DNA of 64,000 bases from Paramecium tetraurelia (taxonomy: Eukaryota > Ciliophora > Oligohymenophorea > Peniculida > Parameciidae), in contig NW_001799648.1 of assembly GCF_000165425.1 (NCBI RefSeq), positions 186,001-250,000 on the forward strand. The letters are read 5' to 3'. Numbering within the stretch: position 1 is the first letter of the stretch; each line of letters begins with the position of its first letter. Positions 3,229 to 43,949 of the stretch are shown here, one piece after another. The position numbers and the translations under genes are program-made. Below the pieces are notes generated by a model. The model did not search any database. It worked only from the letters and a program-made list of their open reading frames with translations, and was not told the DNA's origin.

Positions 3229-3710
3229 TTCATATAGATATATGTCATTCATTCAATAAAATCATTTATATATCCCTATTCCCACCCCTCCTCTGGCAAT
3301 AACTAGACCCAAAGTTTGAAATGGAGAATATTTGAAATCATTGATCTAGATCAATTTTGAGGGTGAATTCTAAACTAAAATAATAATATTGGAATTCATT
3401 TGAACAGTAAGCAATTGACCTCATGCATAAGTGGGATTAGTGAAGAAATGAAGTCACGTATGAAATCAGTAATATATTTTAATTGTATTTCTTTTTAATT
3501 TTATCAGTCCCAATTTATTTCAATAAAACAAATGGCCTTTTGTTTAGAAAGACTTTATTTAATCAAGCATTAGACATAAAATGAGTGAAATAAGTATTGA
3601 CTTTCTAAATTCTTACCAGACTTTTTTTATAATATTTATATGTAAATGTCAATATAATTATATATATTTTAACAATTTATTTATTATATAAAATCAAATT
3701 AACACTAAAA
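3229..3710. other. Intergenic, convergent 3' ends
   Basis: It separates the haemoglobin gene from the DnaJ gene, which converge here. It is AT-rich. Short frames exist on both strands, but none has coding character, and I see no repeat or RNA gene. Confidence 0.5.
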
Positions 3711-5225
3711 TCACAAATCTTCTTTAAATATATTAAGATCAAGACTATCTTTCATTGATTTGAATTAAACGTTTCCACTAATTATTGAATCAAGAAAATC
3801 TTAAACATTTGAAAGTGTCAATTCTCCTTAGAGTTTAGCATATCTTTCTTTTTTAGGTTTGATGACCAATGCTGATGGGAAACTACTAACATCATCAAAA
3901 ACTTCCGAATAAATTAAGTTGCTAAAAATAATGTATTTCTTATTTACTTCTTATTAATATAATAGAAATCGATTTTGTCCTTCATGTAATGATAAGACAA
4001 GGGAGTCAATAAATCTAAATAATCTTTGTCCTCAGTAATAATAATGAAACACATTTTTGTGTCTTTAGTAGTACAAGCCCCATTTTTTATCAATAAGTTG
4101 GACAATTCTCTTGGACCTTGATGAGTTTTTTTAACTTTTTTGCTGATATAAGCATATTCTCTTAAGAATTTCATAATTTATTCTTTCTTAAAATCGTTTT
4201 ACTCATAAATGACTCCTCTATATGATTCTGGCTCAGTCACTACCATGAGAGTAGGGAAGTTCTTGATTTAAAATTACTCAACCAATTTAGTATCTGAATT
4301 TCGAACTTGTCCAAAGACTAGTTTCCCTTTTAATTCTTTGGATAGAACTTTAAGGAGAGGAGGAGTAGAAGTTTTATTAGTGAATAACAAGACTATATGT
4401 TATTCTTCTTGTTGAATGAATTTTTCGTAGTTGTCATTAGTTACTATGCTTACGAAGCTTTCCATGAAGGAGATGGCAAATTTGGCTAGTTGGTCTATTT
4501 CCACTTTGGATTTGAATTCGACTGGTTCTTATCTGATATTGGCAGGGTAAGCGTATATTTTGGGAAACTCATAAACCTGGAACTCATCATCACAGATTTC
4601 ATTTTCAGCAGCACAATTTATTGCAGCAACTTAGAAGATGCCATAATATTTAGAGGCTAATTCATTCCAAGTGTTTTTGTGTTACCTTCCATAATCATCG
4701 TTCTTATAGAAGTAGATCATCCACACGTGATCTCTTCTAAAGAATCTATTTATAGTAGTCATTTCAACTTCGTAAACATCACTTTTAGAAAATAAGGACT
4801 ATTCAAGATTTGGTTTTTGTTATTAGAATCCACCTCCAAAAAATCTTGAGAAAACATCATTATAATTAAAATGACCTTATTCTAGATGTATATTTATAAA
4901 TGGATACTTTGTTGTTATCTTTGAGTATGCTCTTTCAATCCCTCTTCTCCATATTTGTCATATACTTATCTCTATTCTGGGTCTTTGAGTATTTCATACG
5001 CATTGACAATCTTCTAGAATTGTTTTTCAGACTAATTATAGGGGAGATAAGAATTACTTCCTCCTTATTACCTTTGGCCTTGTCTGGGTGGTATTTGAGA
5101 GAGAGCTTTTTGAATGCCTTTTTGATTTAATCATCAGATGCACCTCGCTGTACTCCAAGTAATTAGTAATAATCTTAGCAGAGTGCTTGAAGAAGGACGC
5201 AAAGGAGAAGGAGAAAAGTTTTCAT
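3711..5225 (-). CDS. DnaJ-domain protein with signal peptide, ER-lumenal type
   Basis: Four exons; three 26-nt introns (5032-5057, 4882-4907, 3922-3947) give 478 aa. It begins with a hydrophobic signal peptide (MKTFLLLLCVLLQALC), followed at once by a J domain (YYQLLGVQRGASDDQIKKAF, then the HPD tripeptide in LKYHPDK). A short Gly/Phe-containing link comes next, then about 340 residues with no zinc-finger or classical DnaJ C-terminal motif. The order VWMIYFYKN ... FPKIYAYP resembles thioredoxin-like folds in ER J proteins (DNAJC10/C16 type), but no CxxC pair is seen, so redox activity is doubtful. It is likely a co-chaperone for an Hsp70 of the secretory pathway. Confidence 0.85.
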
Positions 5226-7122: not shown

Positions 7123-8086
7123 ATGAGTAAAACTATTAAGAAATTAAATGAAGTTGCATTAGATAATATACAAGCAACAACTTGGCATGATGAATACAAT
7201 AAGAGTAGTTACATATTTATCGCCAATCTTAATTATGCCATGAATGAAGGTGATATAGCCATTGTCTTTTCGTAATATGGAGAAATAGTTGATGTACATT
7301 TAGTCAGAGATAAAATTACTGGAAAATCCAAAGGGTTTTGTTTCTTAGCCTATGAAGATTAGCGGTCAACCATCTTGGCTGTTGACAACTTCAATCACGC
7401 AGAAATATGTATCTATATGAAATACCAATAAGGTGGAAGATTATTAAGAGTGGATCATGTAAGAGAGTTCAAGCCTCCTAAGGAATACCTTGACATCTCC
7501 CCTGATGATCCGGAAATATTTAATAAGCTCTATAAGCCATCTGGTCCTGATGGCAAAGGATGGGGAACTTTTAGGGAGCTGACTCAAGAAGAATTAGTAT
7601 TAAAAGCATAAATAGAAGCATAATAATAAGAAATCCAGAAAAGAAATGAAAAAATATTTGAGAACATGCAACAGATAAAAAATATGCAGACGATAATTGA
7701 TGAGGATGAGAGGGTATTATAATTATATTATTTTTAAGTGGGATAAAATGTTGATGGTATAGGATGAGAAGAAAGAACTATTGGAAAAAATTGAAGCTCT
7801 CCAATATTTCAATAATAAGATGCAAAAGTATAAGGAGGTCCAAGAGCCAGAAAAATAAGAAACTAATGAGGAGAGATTATTGAGATTATAGAAAAAGCAG
7901 AATAAGAAATATGAGAAAAAGAATTCAGAAGAGAAGGGAAAAGAAAAGAAAATAAAAAAAGAAAAAAAAGAGAAAAAAAACAAAAAGAACAAAGATAAAA
8001 AAGAGAAAAAGGAGAAGAAATCTAAGAATTCAAAGAAAGATCAGCCACAACAATCAGATAACTAAGATAGGGGAAGTTAAAAATGA
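7123..8086 (+). CDS. RNA-binding motif protein, RBMX2/Ist3 (Snu17) family
   Basis: Three exons give 304 aa; introns at 7409-7432 (24 nt) and 7714-7738 (25 nt), both ending AAG. The RRM follows the RBMX2 pattern closely: WHDEYNKSSYIF, RNP2 IFIANL, then FSQYGEIVDVHLVRDKITGK, RNP1 KGFCFLAY, EDQRSTILAVDNFN and RVDHVREFKPPKE. RBMX2/Ist3 is part of the RES complex, which binds activated spliceosomes. After residue 150 comes a coiled coil rich in Lys and Glu, ending in a long Lys-rich tail. The 24-nt intron lies inside the RRM and is confirmed by the conserved spacing between DNFN and GR..RVDHV. It has no TGA in frame, so retention would only insert eight residues. Confidence 0.9.
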
Positions 8087-40792: not shown

Positions 40793-42199
40793 ATGGATAA
40801 CATTTAGCAAATATTTGATACTCTGTAGGAGGATTAAGAAAGTAATTTAGTTCCATTATGATTCTAGTCACCATTAAGGATAATAAATGTAGCAATTGTG
40901 ATAAACCTAGCAAAACCAAAATTTCTATCAAAAATATACCTAATTTTTAACATATTTTTATAATCTCATTCAATTGTCAATCATGTGGATATAAAAATGA
41001 TGAGGTAAGATTCAGAAAAGAAAAGCAAGAAAAGGGTATTAAATTGCAATTAAAAATCAATCAGCCTCAAGTATTGCTTATTTAAAATAATCATAGATAC
41101 TTTAATATAGAATAATCCGTTCTCAACAATGCAAGGTCTCCATTCCTGAATTAGAGTTTCAAATGTCAACCAATAAGAAGAGCTGCATTAATACTTTAGA
41201 GGGATTCATTGAAAATATCATCGATGAATTATCAAGAGATTAAATAGAGAGAAAGAACTGCTAAGGAGAGTTATATTCAGGCATTCAATATATCATTGAG
41301 AACCTACAACAATACCAATAGAATAAGAGACTCCCATTTCATTGGAATATGGACGATCCATCTGGCAACAGCTTCATAATTAGTCCTAGTCAATTCCCTC
41401 AAGATGATCACCTAAATATTCAATATTACACCAGAGAAGAAGATGAATTCGAGACTATTTTTAAAAAGAAAGAAAATCCCTAACAAAAAGATCAAATCTA
41501 AGAGGAATCAAAGCCCAAATAGTAATTTTACTTAAAGATTAGAGGACTACCATTTCAATGCACTAAATCAGATTTAATAAACTTCTTGGAAATGCCTCGT
41601 CTTAAAAAAGATATGCTGACAATGAAATTTTAATAAAATGGTTTGTTCACTGGTGAAGCATATGTTCAAGTCAACTCAATCGAGGATTTGGAATATTTAA
41701 GAACCTTTCATAAATCCCAAATGGATCATCGCTATCTAGAAATATTTAACAGTTGCTTTGATGAGTATAATAAAGCACAAAAATCAAATCAGTTCTTAAA
41801 GAAGATCAATCCTAAAATAACATCTGAGGTAGGTAATATAAATGAAGAAAATGAGTATCAGTGTTAACAACAAGGAGTGCTAAAGTTAAGAGGACTACCC
41901 TGGTCAAGTACTGAATAGGATGTACGAACTTTCTTTAAGAGTATCCATTCATTTTCTATACCTTAGATAATTCAAAAATCAAAACAATTAAATTTCTTTA
42001 TGATGATACTGGGAAAGCCAAAGGGTAGTGTTTTGTATTAGTGAAGAACTTAGAGACAGCTGAAAAGTTGAAATAAAAATACCATAAGAAATCCTTAGGG
42101 TCTCGCTATATTGAAGTAATAAATGATCGTAACATTATTAAAGGTTTTTATATGCAATCAAAGAGAATATCTTGCTTGCTTTCAAAAGACCTATACTGA
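40793..42199 (+). CDS. Single ZPR1 zinc-finger module fused to two quasi-RRMs
   Basis: Four exons give 442 aa; introns at 40842-40867, 41071-41096 and 41941-41966 (all 26 nt, TAG). Residues 20-60 are a ZPR1 C4 zinc finger (KCSNC ... IPNFQHIFIISFNCQSCGYK), followed by the ZPR1 continuation IIRSQQCKVSIPELEF, TLEGFIENIIDEL and LPFHWNMDDPSGNSF. Canonical ZPR1 has two such modules; here only one is seen. In the same frame follow RGLPFQCTKSDLINFL and, about 110 residues later, RGLPWSSTEQDVRTFF with the RNP1-like KAKGQCFVLV: the quasi-RRM type of hnRNP H/F and ESRP. ZPR1 binds eEF1A and links to SMN; qRRMs bind G-rich RNA. The reading between the parts is continuous. Confidence 0.85.
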
Positions 42200-42404
42200 G
42201 AGAAAGAGGAGCGTTAGTCCTTGAAATAAGATGTGATAATTTAATAACTTTATTTTAAATATCATAAATGATAGATATTTTTAATTCTAATTTAAGAGTG
42301 AGAATATTTTATTAGTTGAATAACTTTTATGAATTATTAATAAGTTAAACACCAATAGCTTTAGAGATCTGTTTCTATTAGAACAATATTGAGTTATAAG
42401 TAGA

Positions 42405-43949
42405 TCAATGAAATGAGTAATAAAATTACTATTTTATTTGAGAGATCATAAGATCATATTTAGTATAATACTAATTACTGGAGTATACATTAAATGTTTA
42501 ATTGAAATATTATGATTGATTTTAATTTTATTTCTCACTTATAAACTCTTTCTGGGTTGTATTCCCAAATTGTGAGTTATGGTATATTGAATCTACAATA
42601 GGTTTATAGATTTCTTTTCCATCCTTAACTAAATGGTGATCCATTCTTTCTTTGCAATTCTTACAAATAGGAGATCTTATTCCAACTATAAAATTCCCCT
42701 ATTTTAAATAGCAAATAATACAAGTGGTTAGGTTTTGAAATGAAAGAAATGTTTGAAAGCAGAGCAATCTCGTTACTAGGAAACCGAAAAAAATGGTATT
42801 TGTAAGAAAGTAAATTGAAAAAAATTTTAAGAGAGGGTTGTAATGATCAAATTCTAGATTTTGCAATGTCTAAAAACTAGTTTATTGAAATTTAATACGC
42901 TAATAAAGGCATAGTAGATTTCTTGAATCTAAAATACTAGGGAACCAATAATAGACACATCTATTTCTTTCTCCAATGCAATTGCCAGCCCAAGGACAAT
43001 GATGGTCATAACAAGCTACACATTTGTTGCATGACTGACAATGTTTGGCTCTTGCTAATTGATCAATTGAACAAATAGGACAATATCTAATGTATTCAAG
43101 AAAGTTAAACCTTTTCTCTATGAAAACCTTATTCACTGCTCTAGTTGATTGAGTGATTTTGTTTCTCTCTGACATTCCTGGAGAGTACTATTCACTTATG
43201 TATTCATTCTAAACAGAATGCACTTAAATCGAGAGTTGTGGTTCAATTTTGTTGTTCTTTCTTTTCTCTTCACTCATACCCTTTTGTTGAGTTTTTTTGC
43301 CTTCTGATTTCTATACATCTGCTTCTTTTTATTCATCATTATTAGTGTTAGGAACAATATTTTCATGTTCATTTTGACTTGTGATCGAAAATGCTTATGT
43401 GGATGGTTATTTGGAGTCGAAATCTTGAAATGCTTTTTAGCCTTTGATAGGAGATGGATACTTGTCTGGAGTCTTGGTGAAGGATGGAATTTAATTAATA
43501 TCGAATTCTGGTAATTGATTAACATCGATTGAGGCTTCACAGGGTAATTCTCTATAAATATTAAAAATAGCTACTATTCATTTTCAGATTTTTACTCTTG
43601 GACTACGTTTTATTATTCAATTATGGGGTAGGTTCGAGCATTGGAAGGGATGGCTTAAAATTAAAACATTTTGCGTTTTTATGTTATTTAATTTGAACAT
43701 TCAGTATTGCTAGGACTCCTAATGATAAGATAGCCAGGCTATTTCTTAAATGGTTTGTTACATCTTCGAAGGAAGTCTTAGCATAAAATCCTATTGACAA
43801 TATCACGACAATTGCAAAGTAATAAAAGGAAACAGTTGAAAAATCAAACAATGAAGGATTGAGGATCCCATAAATCGTTAAAGTACTTCCTTAAAGAATT
43901 AAATAAATGAGAGGGGCTATCTAAATAAGTTGGTGATACCTATCTTCAT
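42405..43949 (-). CDS. DHHC palmitoyltransferase; 5' end unresolved
   Basis: The catalytic zinc domain is clear: YCPICSIDQLARAKHCQSCN, KCVACYDHHCPWAGNCIGE, NRCVYYW, with the DHHC tetrad intact. Before it are two membrane spans (IAPLIYLILQGSTLTIYGIL and VSFYYFAIVVILSIGFY) and a polar loop of about 190 residues joined over a 22-nt intron (43574-43595). After it comes one more span (IYFLTNTIFFGFLVTRLLCF) and a tail. It should S-acylate membrane-linked proteins at Golgi, ER or plasma membrane. The first spans are in a frame with no ATG. The nearest ATG (43949) needs a 50-nt intron to join, longer than any other here. The stop at 42405 is the first TGA in the tail frame. Confidence 0.75.

Follow-up and report, generated by a model that had tools for sequence, protein, structure and literature searches.

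A 64,000-nucleotide stretch of the Paramecium tetraurelia genome (C229:186001–250000 of the assembly; hereafter the window) contains a gene that encodes, in one reading frame, a single ZPR1 module followed by two quasi-RRM (qRRM) domains of the hnRNP H/F type. Judged from the sequences, the fusion is real and common to at least three Paramecium species. Its architecture is new, is built of known families and is already present in databases in the form of uncharacterised proteins. The earlier note on this DNA had proposed a single frame that links one ZPR1 module with two qRRMs, and this is borne out both in the window and by annotated proteins of two other Paramecium species.

Spliced translation with the ciliate code (code 6, TAA and TAG read as Gln) and comparison with the orthologues of P. 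primaurelia (P0001) and P. sonneborni (P0002) yield a gene model on the forward strand (40793–42224) that runs from ATG to TGA in five exons and encodes 441 amino acids. Given the TGA frequency of the window, an open frame of 441 codons would be expected by chance with a probability of ~6e-5. Three 26-nt GTA-TAG introns are located at 40842–40867 (phase 1), 41071–41096 (phase 0) and 41941–41966, and a fourth intron of 28 nt, GTA-AAG, at 42116–42143. The frame and the three 26-nt introns are as the earlier note described them, once read with the ciliate code; the 3′ end of its 442-aa version is wrong, since the last 26 residues (INDRNIIKGFYMQ...) are a read-through of the fourth intron, which it had overlooked. 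Both orthologues have the C-terminus RYIEVFIC.QREYLACFQ...RKRSIS, and the window contains an ending of the same type in another frame, 3′ of intron 4. Removal of this intron (GTAATA...TAAAG) yields RYIEVFICNQREYLACFQKTYTERKRSVSP, in agreement with both orthologue endings, and the last exon (42144–42224) then encodes VFICNQREYLACFQKTYTERKRSVSP followed by the stop TGA, similar to the endings of P0001 and P0002. The AAG acceptor is ordinary for Paramecium, because GTA-nAG introns make up 91.8–94.9% of the total depending on expression class, with GTA-TAG accounting for 65.5–72.6% of those (Table 1 of PMC9612004). As to length, 20–34 nt is reported for over 95% of the introns in Paramecium (PMC11334263). 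We infer that the gene is spliced as drawn, with four introns. Its convergent neighbour (42405–43577, minus strand) encodes a DHHC palmitoyltransferase (87.9 bits).

The protein begins with a ZPR1 zinc ribbon (residues 21–67; 40879–41019; Pfam PF03367), in which Cys 24, 27, 53 and 56 are invariant, followed by a ZPR1 jelly-roll with helical hairpin (residues 86–204; 41100–41456). The join (residues 205–227; 41457–41525) aligns with the inter-module linker of ZPR1. Then come qRRM1 (residues 228–305; 41526–41759), best matched by qRRM2 of hnRNP H/F (6dhs, 2hgm), and qRRM2 (residues 345–424; 41877–42170), which is split by introns 3 and 4 and matches 6dhs and 2lxu; all of these lie on the plus strand. 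The C4 zinc ribbon, PELEF, DDPSGNSF, RGLPFQCTK and RGLPWSSTE sequences listed in the earlier note were all found in the window translation. Scored on the earlier 442-aa version against the curated Pfam cut-offs, jr-ZPR1 matched with 109.7 bits (cut-off 27), Zn_ribbon_ZPR1 with 52.2 (23) and RRM_1, in qRRM2, with 55.5 (20.7). qRRM1 has no Pfam RRM_1 match, yet it matches hnRNP H/F structures (2hgm, E 3.9e-12). The fold search with VIA-align returned many RRMs, of which only rows spanning whole domains were used. Structure prediction covered the orthologue from P. primaurelia, and with a mean pLDDT of 69.9 and a pTM of 0.33 the model does not define how the domains are arranged; it predicts a helix after each RRM (residues 305–329 and 421–428). 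A helix likewise follows the RRM in qRRM1 and qRRM2 of Glorund (PMC9262583).

Like ZPR1 (ZNF259; 2qkd; Paramecium P0003), the fusion protein has the C4 zinc ribbon and the jelly-roll with helical hairpin, as well as two introns in the same place, but where canonical eukaryotic ZPR1 has two modules in tandem the fusion has one, and then the RRMs. With the hnRNP H/F family (6dhs; Drosophila Glorund, 5uzg and 5uzm; GRSF1) it shares the qRRM fold, the RGLP[FWY] and RYxE motifs and the arrangement of qRRMs in tandem. Members of this family have a Gly-rich region. Unlike them, the fusion has two qRRMs and no third, no Gly-rich stretch or tail in its 441 aa, and a ZPR1 module at its N-terminal end. 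Three qRRMs are described for hnRNP F, H1 and H2 (PMC7244589).

The identical domain order is annotated in P. primaurelia (91% identity) and P. sonneborni (73%), both identities calculated with the earlier note's ending; the two proteins are entered as ‘RRM domain-containing protein’ and are uncharacterised. The annotated P. sonneborni protein has, at the join, one insertion of a single residue and another of 11. A stop and start that would split the two parts was sought in the window: the join has neither an in-frame TGA nor a Met, and the first Met after the ZPR1 part is residue 250, within qRRM1, so that a stand-alone RRM protein would be truncated. Two separate products are therefore unlikely. 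It is likewise very improbable that two separate genes were run together through an error of prediction or assembly, an explanation that has nothing in its favour beyond the two parts belonging to different domain families and that conflicts with the same join being found in three species, and with the window sequence, in which neither a stop nor a start separates the parts.

The search for the combined architecture, which the earlier note had suggested, recovered it in P. primaurelia and P. sonneborni and, among the hits, nowhere outside Paramecium: ZPR1 and RRM families occur together in 2 of 47 and 2 of 39 database hits, in both cases P0001 and P0002. ZPR1 is a widespread family, and the 47-hit search returned no ZPR1 named as that of Tetrahymena or another ciliate genus either; the missing fusion in other ciliates thus carries no weight. 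Among the matches listed in open-licence PMC for a ZPR1–RRM fusion or for ZPR1 in ciliates, no title or abstract opening mentions such a fusion protein.

Where did the ZPR1 half come from? A tree built from 73 ZPR1 modules, 69 of them different, places those of the fusions as sister to Paramecium ZPR1 module 1 with support of 100/100, which identifies as module 1 the ZPR1 half that the earlier note took to have been recruited. The fusion modules sit on a longer branch (0.65, compared with 0.12), and the program flags the letter composition of all three of their rows as unusual. Archaeal ZPR1-like proteins are also single-module, and to our knowledge lack an RRM; the fusion's module instead descends, according to the tree, from the eukaryotic module 1. 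The first two introns match those of canonical ZPR1 in site and phase: intron 1 (phase 1) follows GDSE in the fusion and EDQE in canonical ZPR1, and intron 2 (phase 0) follows NEPK and NQPQ, respectively (compared by eye, with the canonical splicing checked). Identity between the fusion ZPR1 half and module 1 from its own genome is ~50% (103–104 of 205 residues). On the evidence of tree and introns, the ZPR1 part of the fusion is a duplicate of Paramecium ZPR1 module 1, and the qRRMs occupy the position of module 2. The sister relationship, the two shared introns and the location of the join in the inter-module linker together indicate that a copy of the 5′ half of ZPR1, introns included, became fused to qRRMs: module 1 and two introns would have been duplicated at the DNA level, and the inter-module linker of the duplicate would then have been joined to two hnRNP H/F-type qRRMs.

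The separate two-module ZPR1 that the earlier note had proposed to look for is present on C156 and on C157. Searching the genome (69.07 Mb, 231 contigs) for the zinc ribbon gave six matches: two in each of these two genes, one in a stand-alone module 2 and one in the window. As assembled, neither two-module gene reads unbroken through both modules. In the C156 copy the two modules are separated by an in-frame TGA (L015:2557–2559). In module 2 of the C157 copy the frame shifts by one base relative to C156 (L016, about 3592–3600 of the plus strand, the gene being on the minus strand), which could be an assembly error. Purifying selection acts throughout the pair, including the stretches beyond the breaks (dN/dS 0.10, 0.15 and 0.04); a two-module ZPR1 is thus probably still made, and the breaks may have arisen recently or be errors. 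In both L015 and L016 the gene directly upstream of ZPR1 carries a GFLGSGKTTL motif, and we take it to encode a CobW-type GTPase.

The stand-alone module 2 is a 234-aa protein encoded without an intron directly behind the two-module gene on C157 (L016, C157:233500–240000; minus strand, reverse complement 3360–4061). It is annotated in P. tetraurelia (100%, a macronuclear entry) and in P. primaurelia (90%, the C-terminus differing), and in the 73-module tree it is sister to Paramecium module 2 (100/98). On L015 (C156:211000–216500), about 3619–3684, apparently no more than a short remnant of this gene's end is left, where the protein match is weak (E 0.27), and from position 3655 on the flank is 86% identical to the sister contig C157 over 689 columns. 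The existence of such a protein raises the question of whether ZPR1 has been split, with module 1 of the fusion pairing in trans with the stand-alone module 2 to form an RNA-tethered ZPR1. This would fit the position of the stand-alone module in the tree, its annotation in two species and the breaks between or within the modules of both two-module genes as assembled. We nevertheless consider it quite unlikely: purifying selection acts on every part of both two-module copies, of 45 conserved module-2 columns, 28 are retained in the stand-alone protein and 35 in canonical Paramecium ZPR1, and a word-based search, with 2 hits altogether, did not find the stand-alone gene for P. sonneborni, which carries the fusion.

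As to the RRM half, RGLP[FW] and RY, the residues of qRRMs that presumably contact G-tracts, are present in both domains of all three fusion proteins, which makes it likely that the fusion qRRMs bind G-tracts. In the qRRM tree (113 domains, 78 columns), good support is limited to 16 of the 105 inner branches; its domains were chosen by a pattern already requiring the contact residues, so the count of contact residues there is not independent evidence. A genome search with RRM_1 gave at least 142 matches (150 of 222 candidates scored); one of the matches lies elsewhere in the window (7213–7407, C229:193213–193407; 60.1 bits). An hnRNP F-like query (E up to 1) gave five matches, three of them in the fusion gene (2.4e-10, 0.0039 and 0.0052) and one each on C74 (0.0038) and C183 (0.056). 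The latter two score about level with the pieces of the window's second qRRM; RGLP is absent from every frame of at least 40 aa there, and we took them for ordinary RRM proteins. This search, run exon by exon and on the best candidates only, revealed no further hnRNP H/F-like gene, so that the hnRNP H/F-like domains of the fusion appear to be the only ones it detected in this genome.

What might such a protein do? We tentatively favour the view that, bound to RNA, it acts as an adaptor for a client of ZPR1, either eEF1A or another, with both the RNA specificity and the eEF1A contact predicted from its domains. The qRRMs would bind single-stranded G-rich RNA, and ZPR1 module 1 would recruit the client, eEF1A being the likeliest, to the RNA–protein complex. 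In favour of this, the qRRM motifs are kept; module 1 is the eEF1A-binding module, an important role in binding eEF1A being ascribed to the ZnF1-A module of ZPR1 (PMC10925172); Zpr1, together with Aim29, assists the folding of eEF1A, for which it is a dedicated chaperone (PMC10869706); and Glorund (hnRNP F/H) is reported to inhibit translation elongation by recruiting dFMRP through its qRRM2 (PMC9262583). ZPR1 is also tied to SMN (PMC5557895). The earlier note's suggestion that a ZPR1 half-module brings a G-rich-RNA-binding protein to eEF1A or SMN-type partners is thus partly supported, in that the recruited half is module 1; contact with such partners and with G-rich RNA is a prediction.

The conservation of the ZPR1 half, however, weakens this case. 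Columns conserved in module 1 were counted with 25 references (28 for module 2), after P0024, P0030, P0031, P0032, P0034, P0036, P0038 and P0041, mostly near-identical to others, had been left out. The three fusion proteins keep just 28, 29 and 28 of 41 columns, having lost 12–13, and sit on the longer branch noted above; canonical Paramecium ZPR1 keeps 36 and has lost 5, and each of the references keeps at least 31 (minimum fraction 0.756, median 95%) and has lost at most 10. The ZPR1 half is also less conserved between species than the RRM half and than canonical module 1: relative to P. primaurelia, 188 of 205 residues are identical in the ZPR1 half, 206 of 219 in the RRM half and 194–196 of 205 in canonical module 1, and relative to P. 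sonneborni 144 of 205 in the ZPR1 half and 177 of 219 in the RRM half. Furthermore, module 2 is absent from the fusion, while ZPR1 acts as a whole protein.

The main rival of an adaptor function is that the fusion is real but that its ZPR1 module has given up its action on eEF1A and serves instead as a structural or contact domain (for another partner or for dimerisation) of Paramecium's hnRNP H/F-like protein. This is possible, if somewhat doubtful. The loss of module-1 residues beyond the range of the 25 references, the lower conservation of the ZPR1 half and the failure to find another hnRNP H/F-like gene in the genome speak for it. Against it, all three fusion proteins retain the zinc cysteines, PELEF, MDDPSGNSF and hairpin residues Q133 and R136, and comparison of the fusion half with its own canonical module 1 gives a dN of 0.37 and a dS of 1.64 (near saturation), a ratio of 0.23, which indicates purifying selection over the history of this pair.

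A more far-reaching scenario, speculative and in our view unlikely, is that the modules of a duplicated ZPR1 have parted, module 1 having become attached to hnRNP H/F-like domains, the only ones that were found in the genome, and module 2 having been set free, and that, together or alone, they would form an RNA-addressed chaperone or inhibitor of eEF1A that controls elongation on G-rich transcripts.

The selection on the ZPR1 half suggests that module 1 can be maintained without module 2. The natural fusion of an eEF1A-binding module to RNA-binding domains hints at a physical coupling of protein folding and RNA binding, for which a fusion protein in a tractable ciliate would provide a test case.
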